A stretch of 64,000 nt of DNA. Source: Litoreibacter halocynthiae. Its GTDB lineage: Bacteria > Pseudomonadota > Alphaproteobacteria > Rhodobacterales > Rhodobacteraceae. Of the stretch, positions 56,669 through 64,000 are shown in pieces. The position numbers and the translations under genes were made by a program. The notes beneath the pieces were generated by a model that saw only the letters and a program-made list of their open reading frames with translations, was not told the DNA's origin and searched no databases. Every line of letters starts with the position of its first letter. Positions within the stretch are counted from its first letter, which is position 1. The DNA is taken from contig NZ_SOBH01000001.1 in the NCBI RefSeq assembly GCF_004365635.1, positions 310,001 through 374,000 on the forward strand. Reading direction: 5' to 3'.

Positions 56669-57112
56669 CTATTGCGCGTCATCCAGCCAGATCGTGACGG
56701 GACCGTCATTTACCAAGCTGACCGCCATGTCTGCGCCAAATTCACCAGTTTCTACCGCGACACCACAGGCCGCTAAATCTTTTGCAAACTTCTCGTAAAG
56801 TGCGCGCCCTTCGTCCGGGCGGGCAGCGGCCGAAAAGCCCGGGCGGTTCCCACTGCGCGTGTCCGCTGCCAATGTGAACTGGCTGACGACAAGCGCGGAG
56901 CCTCCGATGTCCACCAAGGATCGGTTCATCTTGCCGGCATCATCCTTGAAGATTCGCAGTTTGGATATTTTGGAGGCCAGCTTAGCGGTCTGATCAGGTG
57001 CGTCGTCTGCCATTGCACAGATTAAAATCAACAGGCCTGCGCCACACGCCCCGACCTGTTCGCCGTCAACGGAAACCGACGCGCGCGAAACCCGTTGGAC
57101 GAGCGCCCTCAC
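56669..57112 (-). CDS. dtd: D-aminoacyl-tRNA deacylase
   Basis: Dtd, 147 residues, the usual length. It hydrolyses D-amino acids from mischarged tRNA. The active-site motif [17 protein letters not shown] (about 78-94) and the cross-subunit Gly-cisPro motif [10 protein letters not shown] (about 136-145) are both present, as is the start [18 protein letters not shown]. The ATG overlaps the stop of the upstream sugar kinase gene by four bases. A 58-base gap separates it from the acyl-CoA synthetase gene. Confidence 0.95.
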
Positions 57113-58029
57113 AACTCATACGCCCAAGGCGGGTTTGCGCCCGCGCGCGACACCGTAATTGCGGCAGTTTTGCTGCCCATGGCCATTGCCGTACGAAGCG
57201 TGTCCGCAGGCAAGGCGGCGAGCGTTGCTTTATCCAATGCGCCTTCTTGCTGTAGCCCTGCAAGAAAGCCCGCGTTGAAAGTGTCGCCCGCGCCAACCGT
57301 GTCGACAACGTCAACTTTAAGTGCGGGAACAGCAACGCGGTGTTCAGGCGTGTAGCCAATCGAGCCTTCGGAGCCTTGGGTGATCAAAACAACCTTGGTG
57401 CCGCGTGCGATAAGATCGGCAGCGAGGCTGTCCAGATCGCCTTCGCCTTCCAGCCAGTGCAGATCTTCGTCGCTTAGCTTTACGACATCCGAAATCGCCA
57501 TCATCGATTTGATGCGCGTGACATAGGCGTCTCGGTCGGTAATGAAGGACGGGCGGATATTCGGGTCGATCATGGTCACACGGGACGGAGCCTCGCGGGC
57601 CATCAGCGCCTCGTAGGCGGAACCGCACGGCTCCCCGACCAACGAGATGCCACCGAAGAACAGGGCCGTGATGTCAGCGGGCAAGACCGGCAAATCGGCC
57701 TCGGTCATCACCCGCAAGGCGCTGTTCTCGTCGTAAAAGGTATAGGTGGCGTGGCCATCGGTTAGGCGCACGAAGGCCAGTGTCGTCGGTCGCGCGGACC
57801 GGAACGCCAGATCTGAGGAAACGCCTGCCTCACTTAACTTGGTTTCCAGCATCTCGCCAAACAAGTCGGTAGACAGACCACAGAAGAACCCAGGGGCAGC
57901 GCCCAGACGTCCCAAGGCGATGGAGGTATTGTAGACAGCACCGCCCGCATAGGGGGCGAAAGCCAGCTCTCCCTCTTGGGAGACGCGGGGCAACATGTCG
58001 ATAAGGGCTTCGCCGCAGCACAGGATCAT
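57109..58029 (-). CDS. PfkB-family carbohydrate kinase (probable fructokinase)
   Basis: Ribokinase-like sugar kinase of 306 residues. The N-terminal [11 protein letters not shown] and [16 protein letters not shown] are the first PfkB signature region; the second signature with the catalytic base is [18 protein letters not shown] (about 237-254). Overall resemblance is to fructokinases (ScrK/Frk). It could phosphorylate fructose entering through the frc transporter 4 kb away. ATG 58029 was chosen because AAGGTGG lies seven bases upstream. It is 15 bases downstream of the zinc-ribbon gene and overlaps dtd by four bases. Confidence 0.9.
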
Positions 58030-58044
58030 TATTGCCACCTTGGG

Positions 58045-59154
58045 TTATTGGTTCAGGGCCATTCCATACCCAACAGCCAAAGCCACCAGCAAGCCAATGA
58101 TGACCGCAATCGCAATTTTGGCGGAAGAGTATGGGCGTTCGCCTTTTACAGTACCAGTCTGACCGTTGACGACAAAGCGATACGTCTTGCCGCGATACTT
58201 GTAGGCGGCCATCCAGACGGGCAGCAAAATATGCTTGAAGGTCACGTCCTTGACGGTGGTGTTGGCCGAGGTGATGCGCTGCTTGTCGCCACCGATGTCG
58301 AAGCGGATGTCGCGGGTAATCATCGCGTCCATCTTGGCGCGTGCCTCCAGAAACCCGGTTTCCAGGTCGACGGTGTAGCCCTCGGCCCGAAATCCGGCGA
58401 GATATTCGGGCGTGTAAGGGGCAAGCTGGGACAGCTTCCAAGGCGCCAACGCGTCGGTGTAGCTTTTTGGCAGAGAGGTCGAGGCCAGAACCAACACATC
58501 GTCAAAGAACCGCGCCACGCGCCCACCAACTGCAGACCAATGTGTTTTGGCGACGCGCTGCTGGTGGCGTTTGCCATCGCGCATCACGGTGCGGGTTTCA
58601 TAATAAATTTTGCCACGCTGACCGGTGTAGCTGGTCTTGGTGTCCGCGTCATACGTCCAGAATGGCACGTAGATACCGCTAAGCTTGCGGCCCTTCTTGG
58701 CGTATTCCTGCAAACCGTTCGGAGCAAACCAACGCTTGCCCAGCCAATCGACCATGGCCTGTTGCGCGTCCCGCTCTGCGATCTCGAACGGCAGTACGGC
58801 ACGAGGCTTGATGTGGCGATGTGTTCCGGTGTCAGTGACGACGGGGGTGGCACAAAACGGGCACTCTGCAGCATGGCTGTCGGGGTCAAACTCGACCTGC
58901 GCCCCGCAGTTGGGGCAGCTGGAGACGCGCGTCTCCTCCAGTTCGGAATCTTGAAGCGTGCCGCGAATTGCCGATTGGAAATCCAATTCGCGGATGTTGG
59001 ACTGGACCGCTTCCAGCATGGGCTCCACATTGCCGCAATGGTCGCACTTGAGCGCGTTGTCATCCGGATCGAACCGCAAGTCGGAACCGCAGGTGTCGCA
59101 CGGAAACCTGTGCTCGATTTCCGGAGCTGTCTTGTCGAGTGGGTTATCGCTCAT
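58045..59154 (-). CDS. Double zinc-ribbon membrane protein (YdjG-like)
   Basis: Protein of 369 residues with two N-terminal zinc ribbons (Cys19/22/37/40 and Cys80/83/98/101), a central soluble beta-rich domain (VPFWTYDADTKTSYTGQRG; LLPVWMAAYKYRGKTYRFVV) and one C-terminal helix (IAIAVIIGLLVALAVGYGMA, about 345-364). Database entries for this type are often labelled replication factor Y or helicase, but there are no helicase motifs. It resembles YdjG of Bacillus, a partner of the SPFH protein YdjI and PspA. Here it follows an SPFH gene, coupled through a 29-codon ORF. Role in membrane stress is inferred. Confidence 0.8.
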   Translation of the reverse strand: MSDNPLDKTAPEIEHRFPCDTCGSDLRFDPDDNALKCDHCGNVEPMLEAVQSNIRELDFQSAIRGTLQDSELEETRVSSCPNCGAQVEFDPDSHAAECPFCATPVVTDTGTHRHIKPRAVLPFEIAERDAQQAMVDWLGKRWFAPNGLQEYAKKGRKLSGIYVPFWTYDADTKTSYTGQRGKIYYETRTVMRDGKRHQQRVAKTHWSAVGGRVARFFDDVLVLASTSLPKSYTDALAPWKLSQLAPYTPEYLAGFRAEGYTVDLETGFLEARAKMDAMITRDIRFDIGGDKQRITSANTTVKDVTFKHILLPVWMAAYKYRGKTYRFVVNGQTGTVKGERPYSSAKIAIAVIIGLLVALAVGYGMALNQ

Positions 59155-59240
59155 GACGTGGGTATGTCCGCAGGTTCAGCGTTAATGGCAATGCGATGGA
59201 TCAGGTGGCAGGGTGTTCGTCCCGCCGCCAAATCGATCAT
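59151..59240 (-). CDS. Possible 29-residue coupling ORF
   Basis: A 29-codon ORF (MIDLAAGRTPCHLIHRIAIN, then AEPADIPTS) fills exactly the gap between the SPFH gene and the zinc-ribbon gene. Its ATG overlaps the SPFH stop (TGATG) and its stop overlaps the zinc-ribbon start (ATGA). The zinc-ribbon gene has no good ribosome site of its own, so this ORF could couple its translation. Chance arrangement cannot be excluded. Confidence 0.4.
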   Translation of the reverse strand: MIDLAAGRTPCHLIHRIAINAEPADIPTS

Positions 59241-60364
59241 CAGGCTTGCGGCGGCGGAGGCGGCAGAACTGTGAAAAGCTGCGCAAGTTCCTGCACATCC
59301 TCGGCGGGCATCCATCCGTCCTGGCCTGCTGTCCAAACAAGTGTTTCGCGCTGCAATGCGCCATCCGCTGCCATACGTCCCATGGCCGCCTTGGAATACG
59401 GTCCCTTGGTCTCGCCAGCTTCTGCGATGTGCCAGACATGTTCGACCGGTGGCGGGGGCGGGGCGGCGTGGGTGGCTGGTGCGGCTTGTGCCGCTTGACC
59501 CCAAGGCCCGCCATGGCCCATCTGGCCTGCCATCGCCATACCGAGACCCGCGCCGATACCTGCACCCATGCCACCGCCGGCGGCACTCGTATTCGAGGCA
59601 GCAGCGGTCATGGCTTCGGCGGCGGAATACTGGGTGAACTTGCCCAAATCGCCCGCAATGCCCATGGAGGAGCGTTTGTCCAAAGCGGCCTCAACCGCTG
59701 GCGGTAGTGATATGTTTTCGATGTAGAATTCCGGGATCGTCAGGCCGTATTGCGCAACAATCGGCGAGATGGCCGCTGCGATGAGCTTGCCCAGATCACC
59801 AGTATTTGCAGCCATGTCCAGCGCGGGAATGCCGGAAGATGCAATCGCGCGGGAGAACTCTTGCACGATGATGTTGCGGATCTGGAAGCTGATCTCGTCC
59901 ATGGTGAATTCACCGTCAGTGCCGACGATCTCGCGCAGGAAGACGGCAGGGTCGGTGATGCGGACGGAATAGGTGCCGAAGGCGCGGATGCGCAGGGGGC
60001 CGAATTCGGGATCGCGCAGCATGATCGGGTTTTTGGTGCCCCATTTCAGGTCGTTGAAACGGGTGGTGTTGACGAAGTATATCTCGGATTTGAACGGCGA
60101 TTTGAAGCCGTGATCCCAGTGGTTCAGCGTCGTGAGGATCGGCATGTTGTTCGTCTCGAGCATATACAGCCCCGGCGTGAACACGTCGGCCAGCTGGCCT
60201 TCATGCACGAACACCGCTGCCTGCCCCTCGCGTACGGTCAGCTTTGCGCCATATTTGATCTCGTGACCTTCACGCTCGAAGCGGGAGACCATGGTATCGC
60301 GGGTGTGATCAACCCAATGAATGACGTCGATAAACTCGCCGGTCAGAAAATCAAAAATACCCAT
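59240..60364 (-). CDS. SPFH-domain protein with C-terminal GYF_2 domain (YdjI-like)
   Basis: Protein of 374 residues. The first 250 are an SPFH/virion-core-like domain of the YdjI type (GIFDFLTGEFIDVIHW, then MLRDPEFGPLRIRAFGTYS and IPEFYIENISLPPAVEAAL). A Gly/Ala/Met-rich linker (about 265-310) follows, and residues 315-362 form a GYF_2 domain (WHIAEAGETKGPYSKAAMGR, VWTAGQDGWMPAEDV) that normally binds proline-rich or partner peptides. No membrane helix is present. YdjI recruits partner proteins to membranes in Bacillus. Starts 26 bases after the DUF2927 gene. Confidence 0.85.
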   Translation of the reverse strand: MGIFDFLTGEFIDVIHWVDHTRDTMVSRFEREGHEIKYGAKLTVREGQAAVFVHEGQLADVFTPGLYMLETNNMPILTTLNHWDHGFKSPFKSEIYFVNTTRFNDLKWGTKNPIMLRDPEFGPLRIRAFGTYSVRITDPAVFLREIVGTDGEFTMDEISFQIRNIIVQEFSRAIASSGIPALDMAANTGDLGKLIAAAISPIVAQYGLTIPEFYIENISLPPAVEAALDKRSSMGIAGDLGKFTQYSAAEAMTAAASNTSAAGGGMGAGIGAGLGMAMAGQMGHGGPWGQAAQAAPATHAAPPPPPVEHVWHIAEAGETKGPYSKAAMGRMAADGALQRETLVWTAGQDGWMPAEDVQELAQLFTVLPPPPPQA

Positions 60365-60390
60365 GTGGTCCTCACTAATTGGTCTTCGGG

Positions 60391-61341
60391 TTAGCTTTCA
60401 CCGCCCAACAGCTCCGACGCGATTACTTCAACGATCGGGCGGGCGCGGGCGGGGGATGTTCCAAGCGGAAGCCGCTGGTCATACAATATCTGGAGCAAGA
60501 TTTCGTCGTGGCGCGTCAGCAGCGCGAATTCGTCGTCATCGTTGAAAATGGAAGGTCGCGCGGCAGGGCTATCGTTGCTAAGGCCCAGTCCTTGGGCGAT
60601 TTCCTCGTGATAGCAGCTTTGACGCAAAAGATCGGGATGCTCGGCGCGCACGATGGCCACAGCAGAATGGAAGCTGTTAGGCGTGTCCGCATCCGAGAAG
60701 GCATAAACGGCGCAATAGATGGGGCGCGGCATGCTGGTGATCTGCCGCGCAATGCCAGCGTCCAATCCGGGGATCAGCTTCATGAGTTGAGGGCCGAACG
60801 CTTCGATTTCGTCGATGGTCAGGACAGCCACGTGGAAATTGCCTTTGCCGCGTGTCACGCCAACCTTTGCACCGGACACTCTCGAAAGGCGACGGGCATA
60901 ATTTGCGACGGTTTGCTGGTCTTTGGTTCGGATGCTTTGGGGAACAGCGGGGCCGAACTGCATCGAGATGTTGATCGGCTTTTCCCACCTTTGAACGCGG
61001 CCTTCCGACCGCTGGTTCGTGTAGAGCCCGTCAACAAGGGTGAACTCGTTGAAAACCCCGATCTGTATGAAGTTATTCACCAATTGGCGCTTGGAGAACG
61101 GCGTGTCGATGCCGCCGCCATCCGTGCGCAGCAAACCTTGCGAAAGCAAACTGCGTTGGACTTGGGCATAATAGGCCGACAACTCTTTCGACCGCTCGGA
61201 AGGCTCGACCAGTTTGGGGGCTGGCTTCGGGGCAGGGGCCACGCGCTGCTCCGGGCGCGGGCTGGACACAGGTGCGTCGCAGGCTGACAGCGTCACCGCC
61301 ATCAGCCCTGCAAGTGCGATATGGAGCGAAGCCCGCATCAA
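60391..61341 (-). CDS. DUF2927 domain lipoprotein
   Basis: Probable lipoprotein of 316 residues: the signal peptide ends in the lipobox VTLSAC (Cys21), followed by a Pro/Ala-rich linker (APAPKPAPKL). The mature domain matches DUF2927: FTLVDGLYTNQRSEGRVQRW, a mid-region and CYHEEIAQGLGLSNDSP with IFNDDDEFALLTRHDEILL (about 244-290). The HEE-x-Q segment resembles a metalloprotease helix, but no activity is known. It starts at the base next to the telA stop and ends 26 bases before the SPFH gene. Confidence 0.8.
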   Translation of the reverse strand: MMRASLHIALAGLMAVTLSACDAPVSSPRPEQRVAPAPKPAPKLVEPSERSKELSAYYAQVQRSLLSQGLLRTDGGGIDTPFSKRQLVNNFIQIGVFNEFTLVDGLYTNQRSEGRVQRWEKPINISMQFGPAVPQSIRTKDQQTVANYARRLSRVSGAKVGVTRGKGNFHVAVLTIDEIEAFGPQLMKLIPGLDAGIARQITSMPRPIYCAVYAFSDADTPNSFHSAVAIVRAEHPDLLRQSCYHEEIAQGLGLSNDSPAARPSIFNDDDEFALLTRHDEILLQILYDQRLPLGTSPARARPIVEVIASELLGGES

Positions 61342-62529
61342 TCAGCCTGTGGACGAGCCGATATTGTGGCCCGACGCGGTGCCCCGTGCGGAGGCGGATG
61401 CAAGCGTATCGCGAAGCTCCCCTTCCATGCGTTGCAACTCCACTTCGGCCTCGGCACGTTTGCGCTTGCCTTCGTCGGCGATTTGCAGGCTTTCCTCGAT
61501 GGTCCCGATAAGATCCGCGTTGGCTTGTTTGACTGCTTCGATATCGAACACGCCGCGTTCCATTTCCTCACGAACCGCCTTGTTGGCCGTGCGCAGGTTT
61601 TCGGCGTTGGCAGTCAGCAGCTCGTTGGTTAGATCGTTCGCGTCCCGCACGGCGGCGGCAGCCTCGGAGGAGCGCTGGATCGTCAGTGCCTGTGCCAGTT
61701 GAGTTTCCCAAAGTGGCACGGTGTTCACGAGGGTGGAATTGATCTTGGTAACCAGCGACTTGTCGTTTTCCTGCACCAAGCGAATGGACGGCAGCGATTG
61801 CATGGTTACTTGACGGGTCAGCTTCAGATCGTGAACGCGCCGTTCCAGATCGTCGCGGGCCGCACGCAAATCGCGCAATTCTTGGGCCACCATGACTTGA
61901 TCGTTTTCTTTGGCCTTTTTCACAGCGGCTTCTTTGGCCGGAATATCTTTGCTGTCGAGCTCTGCGATCTTTTCCTCTCCGGCGGTAATGTAGAGCGCCA
62001 GTTCGTCATAGAAATCCAAAGTGCGGTCATACAACACGTCGAGTGACTTGATGTCCTTGAGCAGCGTATGTTCATGCGACAGCAAATTGTTGGTGATCTT
62101 GTCGATCTGGCCCTGAACGGTTTCATAGCGCGCCATGAATTTTGCAGCAGGTGCCGCGCGGCCCAGCAGCTTTTCCCACCAAGAGCGCTCGCGGCGCATG
62201 TCCATCTCGGAGATCGAGAACCCGCGAATGGTGGTGACGATGTCGCGCAAGCTGCCGCCAGCGGGGCCAACGTCTTTGTTCTTCACGTCGGCCAGCATCG
62301 ATTGGCTGATCTCTTGCAAGCCGGCTTGCGCACCCGACCCGAACGACACGATGGAGTTCGTGTCGGTCATGTCAATCTCGTCCATGCGACGGCGAATTTC
62401 GGCGGCAACAGGTGCTTCGGCTTTTGCCAATGGCACAAGATCGGTTGAGGGCTCTTTAAGCACCACCGCCGTCAGCTCTGCCAGAGCTTGGGTGGATTGT
62501 TCAGCCTTTTGGCGGACAGTATCGGACAT
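61342..62529 (-). CDS. telA: TelA/KlaA-like toxic anion resistance protein
   Basis: Protein of 395 residues, mostly alpha-helical with long coiled-coil stretches, of the TelA/KlaA family (YaaN in Bacillus). Recognised by VSFGSGAQAGLQEISQSMLA, IRGFSISEMDMRRERSWWEK and PSIRLVQENDKSLVTKINST. TelA is linked to tellurite, colicin and other envelope stresses by unknown means. It is cytoplasmic by prediction. It starts three bases after the xpaC stop, and its stop is one base before the DUF2927 start. Confidence 0.9.
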   Translation of the reverse strand: MSDTVRQKAEQSTQALAELTAVVLKEPSTDLVPLAKAEAPVAAEIRRRMDEIDMTDTNSIVSFGSGAQAGLQEISQSMLADVKNKDVGPAGGSLRDIVTTIRGFSISEMDMRRERSWWEKLLGRAAPAAKFMARYETVQGQIDKITNNLLSHEHTLLKDIKSLDVLYDRTLDFYDELALYITAGEEKIAELDSKDIPAKEAAVKKAKENDQVMVAQELRDLRAARDDLERRVHDLKLTRQVTMQSLPSIRLVQENDKSLVTKINSTLVNTVPLWETQLAQALTIQRSSEAAAAVRDANDLTNELLTANAENLRTANKAVREEMERGVFDIEAVKQANADLIGTIEESLQIADEGKRKRAEAEVELQRMEGELRDTLASASARGTASGHNIGSSTG

Positions 62530-62532
62530 AAG

Positions 62533-63417
62533 TTATTCCCCTTCGTTCAGGCGGATGCCTTCGCGCTGCAAACGGTCGCGCAGCACGTCGATTTCAATAT
62601 CTAGATCGGTGCGATTATCCGACAGAAGCGCCTGATTTTTCGCGGTGAAATTTGCCTCAAGGTCGTCAAGAAGCGAGGTGTAGTCCGCTTTTACGGACGG
62701 GTCGCGGCCTTGGGCGTATAGCTTGGAAAACTTGATCGTCGCATCTTTGGCCCCCAGCAAATACACGCCCAGATAGCGGCGCGCGGTAGTCAGGTCGCGT
62801 GGATCGTTTTCCACCGTGCGGAAGAAGGACCGCGCGGTGGCTTGGAATTGCTCGACACGGGCGATCATGGTGCGGTCGCCCGCTGTTGCGATCGCGTCGG
62901 TCATCGCGCGCAGGTGGCGCTCGGCCTCGTCGACGGCACGCGCGACGCGGTCGGTCTGGAACGTGTCCACGCCTTCGAGTGCTTTGTCCCGCATCGGGTC
63001 CAGCCCGAACGATGCCAAATGCAAGATTACGGCGATGATGCCGTAAAGGACGCCATCCATCAGGCTGGTATCAAGTGTGGCAACGCCAACACCCAACCCG
63101 AGGGCGATCGCGCCAAAAATCTTACGCGGAATGGCAGGGCGACGGGCAATGGTCCGCGCTTCATAGGCGTTTTGCGCGTCAATGCCTTCGCGGGTCAGCC
63201 AAGCCCCAAGCGCCATAAGGGCGAACGCACCGATGGCTACGGCCATGTCGCGGGCACCGTCACCGATGGAGGTGAAAAGGATGGGCAAGGCCACGAGGAA
63301 TAGCAAATTGGCGCGGGTCCGTCCCTTGGCAGGTTGCTTGCCACTCAATGGGGAGGTTTTGGGCGCGGTCGGACCGGTCCCGTCCGGACTAAACTGCCCG
63401 CCGAATTTCTGCGCCAT
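62533..63417 (-). CDS. xpaC: XpaC-like 5-bromo-4-chloroindolyl phosphate hydrolysis family protein
   Basis: Protein of 294 residues. After a Pro/Gly-rich N-terminus come four hydrophobic segments in two pairs (ANLLFLVALPILFTSIGDG, MAVAIGAFALMALGAWL; FGAIALGLGVGVATLDTSLM, VLYGIIAVILHLASFG), then a soluble coiled-coil domain (about 145-290). In Bacillus xpaC and yaaN (telA) form a pair, as they do here with a three-base gap. The enzyme name is historical; there is no phosphatase motif. The start overlaps the stop of the upstream 26-residue ORF (TGATG). Confidence 0.85.
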   Translation of the reverse strand: MAQKFGGQFSPDGTGPTAPKTSPLSGKQPAKGRTRANLLFLVALPILFTSIGDGARDMAVAIGAFALMALGAWLTREGIDAQNAYEARTIARRPAIPRKIFGAIALGLGVGVATLDTSLMDGVLYGIIAVILHLASFGLDPMRDKALEGVDTFQTDRVARAVDEAERHLRAMTDAIATAGDRTMIARVEQFQATARSFFRTVENDPRDLTTARRYLGVYLLGAKDATIKFSKLYAQGRDPSVKADYTSLLDDLEANFTAKNQALLSDNRTDLDIEIDVLRDRLQREGIRLNEGE

Positions 63418-63497
63418 CAGATCGCGCCCGCCGACGCCATGGCCACGAGTGCCAAGAGCAACACATATGCGATTTTTTGAAGTGCGCTGGCAGACAT
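63417..63497 (-). CDS. 26-residue membrane microprotein upstream of xpaC
   Basis: ORF of 26 codons: a short polar start (MSASALQKIA) and one hydrophobic helix (YVLLLALVAMASAGAI). GGGGGTGG lies just before its ATG, and its stop overlaps the xpaC ATG (TGATG), so it would be made together with XpaC. The hydrophobic character and coupling support it as a real small membrane protein, but it could also be a leader peptide. Confidence 0.5.
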   Translation of the reverse strand: MSASALQKIAYVLLLALVAMASAGAI

Positions 63498-63571
63498 ACC
63501 ACCCCCGATGGCCGTTCTAGAGAAATCGTGCACGGCAAACATAGGCACTTGCCGCGCAACTTACCAGAAGT

Positions 63572-64000
63572 TCAGTGACCGCTTGTTTGCGTGCTGGCAC
63601 GTTCGGCTGCCAGCTTTTTGGCGTAACCCGACTGAATGAATTCCACGACGAACAACACAACAACCGAGAAGTAGAAGGTGGATTTGGACATCGGAATGAT
63701 CGGGTAGCCGAAAACATGCAGCGCCAGATCGTCATTATGGGTAGCATGCGCCGCTGCGACGCCTGCCTCGCCTAACAAGACAACGCCGACGATCAGCAAA
63801 ATGAACAGGCCCAAGACCTCGTACATCCGGTTTTTTTGCAGGAACGCCGTCACGCCGTCAGCAAGCAACAGCATGGCAAGACCAGAGATCAGGATTGCTG
63901 CGGCAAGCACGGGGAAGACTTCGGTAATTGCAATGGCCGAGAGGACCGAGTCAAAGCTGAAGATCAAATTCATGAAGATGATAAGGCCGACGACCTTTAC
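63572..64000 (-). CDS. TerC family membrane protein (N-terminus outside window)
   Basis: The visible 142 residues are the C-terminal part of a TerC-family protein. The TerC motif FSFDSVLSAIAITE begins near the truncated end, followed by helices LAAAILISGLAMLLLA, MYEVLGLFILLIVGVVLL and FYFSVVVLFVVEFIQ. The acidic-helix pattern IFMNLIFSFDSVLSA is metal-binding in this family. TerC members export or handle manganese and occur beside stress genes. It is upstream of and in line with the xpaC-telA block, 74 bases away. Confidence 0.88.
   Translation of the reverse strand, partial: VKVVGLIIFMNLIFSFDSVLSAIAITEVFPVLAAAILISGLAMLLLADGVTAFLQKNRMYEVLGLFILLIVGVVLLGEAGVAAAHATHNDDLALHVFGYPIIPMSKSTFYFSVVVLFVVEFIQSGYAKKLAAERASTQTSGH

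Follow-up and report, generated by a model that had tools for sequence, protein, structure and literature searches.

A TelA-XpaC gene block joined to an SPFH-zinc ribbon pair across the Rhodobacteraceae: a candidate inner-membrane stress platform

On the minus strand of a 64,000-nucleotide stretch of the Litoreibacter halocynthiae genome (contig NZ_SOBH01000001.1; G000:C1:310001-374000 in our numbering, hereafter the window), genes for XpaC and TelA lie in a row with genes for a DUF2927 lipoprotein, an SPFH protein and a double zinc-ribbon membrane protein (ZnR). Do these genes form one system, or several that happen to adjoin? A preliminary description, made from the sequence of the window alone, had read eight consecutive minus-strand open reading frames (ORFs) as a single membrane-stress system combining YdjG/YdjI-like with XpaC/TelA/TerC-like parts. 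We found that the block is real and that its core is conserved in most sampled members of the family, a large one with marine and soil bacteria. The gaps of 0 to 85 bases between the ORFs agreed with the coordinates, and seven of the eight genes were confirmed; the eighth, a 29-codon ORF, was not. The core genes, all on the minus strand and with coordinates counted from the first base of the window, are listed here.

63417-63497, minus strand: microprotein of 26 residues with a single transmembrane (TM) segment; its stop overlaps the XpaC ATG.
62533-63417, minus strand: XpaC (Halogen_Hydrol), 294 residues, three TM-like segments (PF10112, E 2e-25).
61342-62529, minus strand: TelA, 395 residues (PF05816, E 5e-109); soluble by hydropathy, with no TM-like segment.
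60391-61338, minus strand: DUF2927 lipoprotein, 315 residues (PF11150, E 6e-51); lipobox LSAC-D, motif HEEIAQGLGLSND...PSIFNDD.
59240-60364, minus strand: SPFH (Band_7_1) protein with a C-terminal GYF_2 domain, 374 residues (PF13421, E 8e-100); no TM-like segment.
58045-59154, minus strand: double zinc-ribbon protein (ZnR) of YdjG type, 369 residues; TM-like segment at 347-365, with sub-threshold Pfam zinc-ribbon matches.

For the DUF2927 gene we prefer the ATG at 61338 as the start over a TTG at 61341, and the C-terminal TM-like segment of ZnR is likely a tail anchor.

To determine how widely this arrangement is kept, we took up to 20 kb around TelA from 105 genomes of the family (L. halocynthiae included) and from G022, and annotated these 106 loci by phmmer with the window's own proteins at a cut-off of 1e-5. 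The core of XpaC, TelA, DUF2927, SPFH/GYF and ZnR was complete, ordered and on one strand at 85 of the 106 loci, and at 77 of the 87 well-flanked loci, those with at least 5 kb upstream and at least 7 kb downstream. Counted on the strand of TelA, with the well-flanked loci in brackets, XpaC was present at 104 (85), DUF2927 at 100 (83), SPFH at 97 (82), ZnR at 89 (81), the upstream pseudouridine-synthase-like gene that we take to be RluB at 84 (70), the downstream PfkB-type kinase at 50 (46) and TerC at 20 (17). XpaC and TelA were separated by between -20 and 300 bases in 102 of 104 loci. Loss of these flanks need not disrupt the core: it was whole at 11 of the 17 loci lacking a co-directional RluB, and at 7 of the 11 with neither RluB nor PfkB in the same direction. 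The claim of one block stands for the joining of YdjG/YdjI-like and XpaC/TelA parts across the family; TerC, at so few loci, we rejected as a core member.

A comparison of neighbourhoods had been set beforehand as the refuting test of the single-system proposal, and it found the genes together when DUF2927 served as the anchor as well. Among the best 80 of 575 confirmed stretches (named loci, a choice that favours near relatives and partly overlaps the TelA sample; contig ends included), DUF2927 was accompanied by TelA at 77, XpaC at 76, SPFH at 76 and ZnR at 67, and by RluB at 51, PfkB at 44 and TerC at 29. TelA itself was found in 105 of 120 genera of the family, in 11 of 115 genomes of the class and in 40 of 249 genomes of the phylum. 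DUF2927 matched in 114 of 120 family and 16 of 115 class genomes, with at least two matches in most of the family genomes listed.

The conserved row begins ahead of XpaC. A hydrophobic ORF of 15 to 60 residues, ending between 60 bases before and 40 bases after the XpaC start, was found at 101 of the 104 family loci with XpaC, although a few of these diverge in sequence and the one in L048 appears spurious. The stop of this ORF overlapped the XpaC start in 50 cases and preceded it by at most 7 bases in 48; in 3 it was more distant. A strict motif, [LVI][QRKS][KNRTG][LIVATWF][AS][YFA] with a nearby stop, which we composed after inspecting a first list of candidates, occurred at 117 of 179 loci, but at just 2 of the 179 when the opposite strand was read and at none of 303 sites upstream of TelA, DUF2927 or SPFH. 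Mean entropy at the first, second and third codon positions was 1.28, 0.79 and 1.52, and 59% of single-base codon differences were synonymous in the microprotein frame, against 21% and 15% in the other frames and 28 to 33% expected (pairs uncorrected for shared ancestry). These patterns support a translated membrane peptide of about 26 to 30 residues and identify the ORF ahead of XpaC as a genuine conserved microprotein. Outside the family, none was seen upstream of XpaC in L110, L113 or L140, the three loci with readable sequence there, which were inspected by eye in three frames; in L112 a contig end cuts this region off.

To our knowledge, neither TelA nor XpaC has a settled molecular function. 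In Gram-positive bacteria the pair is part of envelope-stress regulons. Like our block, xpaC-yaaN of Bacillus and lmo1966-1967 of Listeria place XpaC and TelA side by side in the same order; unlike those pairs, the XpaC-TelA genes studied here are embedded among SPFH, ZnR and lipoprotein genes, with the microprotein ahead. The Bacillus yceC-H genes, with YceH presumably a TelA, and Ter systems share with the block a neighbourhood that holds TelA with TerC (in our case at a fifth of loci). Unlike Ter systems, however, the block has an optional TerC, and TerD, TerB and TerF went unmatched among its proteins (Pfam; the rest of the genome was not searched).

An excerpt of PMC3498285 lists xpaC-yaaN as a core sigma-W unit and yceC-H, including yceF and yceH, under sigma-W/B/M. 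For Lactococcus lactis, a paper on the overproduction of membrane proteins and on CesSR, an envelope-stress pair, includes XpaC-like and telA1 genes in a table of responses (PMC3139573, in the part available). Disruption of the Listeria TelA gene lmo1967 raised sensitivity to nisin and tellurite, according to a passage of PMC12791056 that cites Collins 2010, and YceF is described as a TerC-family protein in an excerpt of PMC10550928, where TerC proteins metalate exported enzymes in Bacillus. A Paracoccus TelA is among the expressed proteins of a plastisphere metaproteome (PMC11962581, likewise in excerpt); whether it is the same TelA as here is uncertain.

Beyond the family, the surroundings of TelA varied. 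The order XpaC-TelA-SPFH-ZnR, without an intervening DUF2927, recurred in two further families of the class (L110 and L112); the genome of L112 also has a short contig, L111, that held XpaC-TelA only. XpaC lay directly 5' of TelA with no SPFH in L113, and in L140, from another member of the phylum, XpaC-TelA was followed by a 27-bit SPFH match. L109, L114 and L143 showed a weak XpaC match downstream of TelA, behind a gene that looked by eye to be of VWA type. No XpaC match was found at eight further outside TelA loci (L108, L116, L141, L142, L144, L146, L147 and L150), where profiles built from the family could miss a divergent XpaC and indeed scored TelA low at several of them. Comparison of TelA with solved structures returned low-score matches only, mostly to helical-bundle fusion constructs. 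Two side observations concern these genes: at 12 of the 106 family loci (L011, L028, L029 and L034 among them) a second, weaker XpaC match lies upstream of XpaC, and in L116, from another family of the class, DUF2927 and a weak TelA match are on opposite strands some 4 kb apart.

The second half of the block has relatives of its own. All 87 ZnR homologues carry two CxxC-CxxC ribbons, and 89 of 92 SPFH homologues carry a GYF-like core by pattern. In Enterococcus gallinarum a relative of ZnR (tblastn E 1e-29, query residues 13-343) is encoded between a TPM gene and an SPFH gene whose product ends in zinc ribbons; our ZnR alignment A3 matched this Enterococcus protein by hhalign with 99.9% probability over 316 columns, and the SPFH protein of the block matched the Enterococcus SPFH by blastp at E 5e-13 in a single comparison. 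PF13421 also matched in the Bacillus subtilis control. The best match of the SPFH protein among solved structures (E 0.003) covered the GYF part. According to an excerpt of PMC11237479, the Bacillus operon beside PspA encodes a TM protein with two zinc ribbons, a TPM protein and a band-7 protein that ends in a zinc ribbon; the source prints ydjFGHL and YdjL for YdjI. Because this description agrees in gene content with the Enterococcus cluster, that cluster ties our SPFH-ZnR pair to YdjI-YdjG-YdjH of Bacillus, with B. subtilis YdjG matched by description only. By sequence, the second half of the block is homologous to a Gram-positive SPFH-ZnR-TPM cluster of the YdjI-YdjG-YdjH kind, which gives the YdjG/YdjI likeness proposed in the preliminary description a sequence basis through Enterococcus, the B. 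subtilis proteins again being compared by description only.

Like pspA-ydjG-ydjH-ydjI of B. subtilis, the block pairs an SPFH protein without a TM-like segment of its own with a two-zinc-ribbon membrane protein. In contrast to that operon, it has a C-terminal GYF_2 domain where a YdjI-type SPFH has zinc ribbons, holds neither PspA nor TPM (YdjH), and is joined to XpaC-TelA, DUF2927 and the microprotein. No TPM protein was found among those of the block by Pfam; one TPM gene lies elsewhere in the genome. The GYF domain, a possible adaptor in the preliminary description, is dispensable for the pair, because the SPFH partner in one phylum genome (L131) has HTH_17 in its place and one in Comamonas is annotated with a helix-turn-helix domain. 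As separate observations, 11 family loci (L006, L015, L025, L022 and L056, for example) have same-strand genes resembling cytochrome b561 in the SPFH/ZnR interval, in two clusters of 9 and 2 loci named by inspection of one example each; on a plasmid of Vibrio coralliilyticus (L257), SPFH-ZnR has a TIR-domain gene some 3 kb away on the other strand; and on a Novosphingobium plasmid (L259), SPFH heads a row with another set of partners, DUF4178-DUF350-polyamine aminopropyltransferase.

What might the assembled genes do? We consider the case about evenly poised that the microprotein, XpaC, TelA, DUF2927, SPFH/GYF and ZnR constitute a single co-expressed platform for stress or repair at the inner membrane, with XpaC-TelA as the would-be replacement of PspA and YdjH. 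This is the likeliest reading because the XpaC-TelA pair of Gram-positive envelope-stress regulons and an SPFH/YdjG-type half occur in it together. In B. subtilis, membrane recruitment of YdjI requires YdjG and YdjH, and PspA foci require all of them (PMC8581546, in excerpt). In our block, XpaC and the likely tail-anchored ZnR would bring TelA and a soluble SPFH oligomer to the inner membrane on its cytoplasmic side. TelA, soluble and probably helical, would occupy the position held by PspA in Bacillus, and XpaC would serve as an anchor in YdjH's stead. From the periplasmic side, the DUF2927 lipoprotein may report or respond, while the microprotein, at or overlapping the XpaC start, could aid insertion of XpaC or couple its translation. 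TerC, an accessory at a minority of loci, may provide metal for proteins that are exported. A more specific version, which we regard as doubtful, would make the block a PspA-free counterpart of the Psp system, with an XpaC-TelA scaffold for membrane repair on a YdjI/YdjG-type SPFH platform, a periplasmic signal from an inactivated-metzincin lipoprotein and a microprotein that tunes XpaC.

Several observations weigh against a single platform. Ten of the 87 well-flanked loci miss one or more core genes, so that parts of the core are separable. DUF2927 is missing at four (L005, L016, L018 and L065) and XpaC at two (L072 and L088), neither having been sought elsewhere in those genomes. ZnR is not nearby at six: at five of these SPFH is gone as well (L016, L018, L024, L035 and L071), and L097 lacks ZnR only, the rest of its genome not having been searched for it. 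The losses include DUF2927 by itself (L005, L065), DUF2927 with SPFH and ZnR (L016, L018) and SPFH with ZnR (L024, L035, L071). DUF2927 also matched in 9 of the 15 family genomes without TelA. In five of these (L118-L122, with L121 cut by a contig end), no XpaC, TelA, SPFH or ZnR was found beside DUF2927 at 1e-5, apart from a 26-bit XpaC trace that looser profiles gave in L118; DUF2927 was adjoined by TerC in two of the five and by RluB in four. XpaC evolves fast: among six plasmid records of Paracoccus and Pseudorhodobacter having SPFH, DUF2927 and ZnR, tblastn matched it in one. Paracoccus denitrificans is a case with those three genes in which XpaC went unmatched.

Outside the family, moreover, the SPFH-ZnR pair mostly occurs without TelA. 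At 12 loci of the phylum (L124, L126-L133 and L152-L154) ZnR came immediately after SPFH and the stretch gave no match to TelA, and the pair also lacked TelA on plasmids of Vibrio, Comamonas and Tsukamurella. ZnR matches of 21 to 32 bits lay beside SPFH in L134-L137, SPFH stood alone in L138 and L139, and in L125 it was at a contig end. Five genomes from outside the family in the 249-genome phylum sample had both TelA and a strong Band_7_1 match (G012, G440, G414, G298 and G241); within the limits of the contigs the two were adjacent in none, and by eye they lay on different contigs in four. The spacing of the genes adds little, as the PfkB kinase starts 6 bases past ZnR and is followed on the same strand by D-Tyr-tRNA deacylase, an AMP-binding enzyme and an AstE/AspA-type enzyme; short gaps run on into housekeeping genes, so intergenic distance is not specific to the block. 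A literature search found no expression, localisation or interaction data on members of the alphaproteobacterial block. Within its coverage, which left out most subscription journals, it found no paper on the block and none naming DUF2927. Parts of these neighbourhoods may be mentioned in the work of Anantharaman and co-workers on Ter-dependent stress systems (2012), and we do not claim priority.

The place assigned to PspA must be weighed in the same way. As the preliminary description had noted, the block contains no PspA. The L. halocynthiae genome has a single PspA over the Pfam cut-off (56.7 bits, G000:C3:538142), on another contig than the block, adjoining a 95-residue hydrophobic protein and genes that by ORF inspection resemble those of lipid synthesis. 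Across the family, PspA exceeded the cut-off in 23 of 120 genomes (26 at E 0.001), though absence here rests on one profile, and since even the scores over the cut-off are low (52.7 to 88.6 bits) a divergent PspA could be missed. Mutual exclusion of TelA and PspA, which we considered, was rejected, as PspA is equally common with TelA (20 of 105) and without it (3 of 15). By this profile the block usually occurs without detectable PspA.

Alternatively, the block may comprise two or three independent modules that share an operon only through expression with envelope growth, their adjacency being inherited synteny. We regard this as possible but clearly the lesser prospect. Such modules would account for SPFH-ZnR without TelA outside the family, for XpaC-TelA alone in L113, Bacillus and Listeria, and for the five genomes that keep DUF2927 without TelA (L118-L122), and the retention of RluB upstream at 84 of 106 loci indicates that background synteny is high. 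However, the core genes other than TelA, at 81 to 85 of the 87 well-flanked loci, exceed both flanks (RluB 70, PfkB 46), the core persists at 7 of 11 loci without either flank, and in L110 and L112 XpaC-TelA and SPFH-ZnR meet in other families with no DUF2927 between them.

It is improbable, in our estimation, that the block is a Ter-type system for chemical stress or metals, in which TelA and TerC would handle toxic oxyanions or metal supply with SPFH and ZnR as accessories. Pfam does name TelA for toxic-anion resistance, a jumbo-phage study places it among sub-membrane Ter components (PMC7824862, in excerpt), and the metalation of exported enzymes by Bacillus TerC proteins (PMC10550928, in the part cited) would suit such a role, but TerC is at just 20 of 106 loci, none of TerD, TerB or TerF matched in the block proteins within the scope given above, and the Listeria TelA phenotype, as excerpted in PMC12791056, covers nisin and not tellurite alone. 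Far less probable still is an anti-phage or biological-conflict system, despite relatives of TelA and TerC in phages (PHROGs), TelA in 57 phage records, the Vibrio plasmid pair near a TIR gene and the proposal, in the excerpt of PMC7824862, that Ter components act against superinfecting phages. Defence islands are patchy, unlike TelA with its 105 of 120 genera and a block that mostly keeps its neighbours (RluB upstream at 84 of 106 loci), and PADLOC matches were weak and partial (16.7 and 21.5 bits).

The lipoprotein that would serve the platform from the periplasmic side yielded a further lead. The DUF2927 protein of the window is 98% identical to one of Litoreibacter ascidiaceicola DSM 100566. 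A lipobox pattern was present in 95 of 99 operon-type DUF2927 proteins, with Asp or Glu after the Cys in 43 of the 95; in Escherichia coli, Asp at +2 retains lipoproteins in the inner membrane. EExxQxxGxxND occurred in 97 of the 99 and S-x-F-N-D in 96, whereas HExxH occurred in none. A second DUF2927 protein of the same genome (454 residues, L149:9058-10422, G000:C1 ~521,060-522,420) keeps HEExxQxxGxxND...SIFNDD; its gene lies beside ORFs that by inspection resemble a MoxR-type AAA ATPase and a VWA-type protein. At L091:10533-12388, two DUF2927 genes stand in tandem behind TelA, the first having V for H before the EE pair.

The E-E-x-x-Q-x-x-G-x-x-N of DUF2927 is spaced like the H-E-x-x-H-x-x-G-x-x-H of metzincins (PF00413 and relatives), and S-I-F-N near the place of the Met-turn and L-T-x-x-D...L-Y at the end are also metzincin-like. 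Unlike metzincins, DUF2927 reads E, Q and N at all three zinc-binding His. An alternative reading as HExxHxxG in which the second His alone is missing was rejected, as the exact-spacing register is EExxQxxGxxN with all three ligands changed; this register is our own reading, and hhalign, which opened a gap of one residue to align H244 with the metzincin His, differs from it by one residue at the first ligand. Against six metzincins of the class, DUF2927 scored 18.9 locally (30 shuffles at most 17.1; TerC control 27.4), and with both trimmed to cores 17.4 locally (TerC 26.9) and 9.6 globally (eight controls at most 3.8). With a larger set of 19 metzincins, DUF2927 reached 15.0 locally, a value that five of the eight controls and the best of the shuffles (16.9) surpassed. 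Profile comparisons between DUF2927 and metzincins gave a probability below 1% in every run, which is not significant, and Pfam and PDB profile scans of DUF2927 proteins returned no zincin. A metzincin fold for DUF2927 is thus a lead and not a result, suggested by motif spacing, unproven, and with one profile test against it.

The other features in and around the row are these.

63572 to past the window end (~64396), minus strand: TerC-family membrane protein, 274 residues (PF03741); whole gene in L002; an optional neighbour.
63529-63558, minus strand: hairpin of 13 pairs in the TerC/microprotein interval with a weak T tail; a possible terminator or attenuator.
59151-59240, minus strand: 29-codon ORF in the SPFH/zinc-ribbon interval, not conserved as a gene.
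57109-58038, minus strand: PfkB-type carbohydrate kinase (PF00294), a flanking gene outside the core.

The pseudouridine-synthase-like gene lies 5' of TerC. We take the hairpin as merely a hint, because the 11 terminator-like sites of the region do not exceed the shuffled mean of 10.9. The 29-codon ORF was rejected as a conserved gene, as it has an in-frame stop in the nearest relative, L155; an ATG ORF of 20 to 60 residues ending at the ZnR start was found at 18 of 66 named loci, and the 12 examples compared were unrelated in sequence.

The block ties TelA and XpaC to SPFH and YdjG-type proteins across the family, and so provides a concrete setting in which the role of TelA may be tested, in bacteria that are mostly without detectable PspA. 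It also yields a conserved microprotein and, for DUF2927, a lead at the level of motifs.

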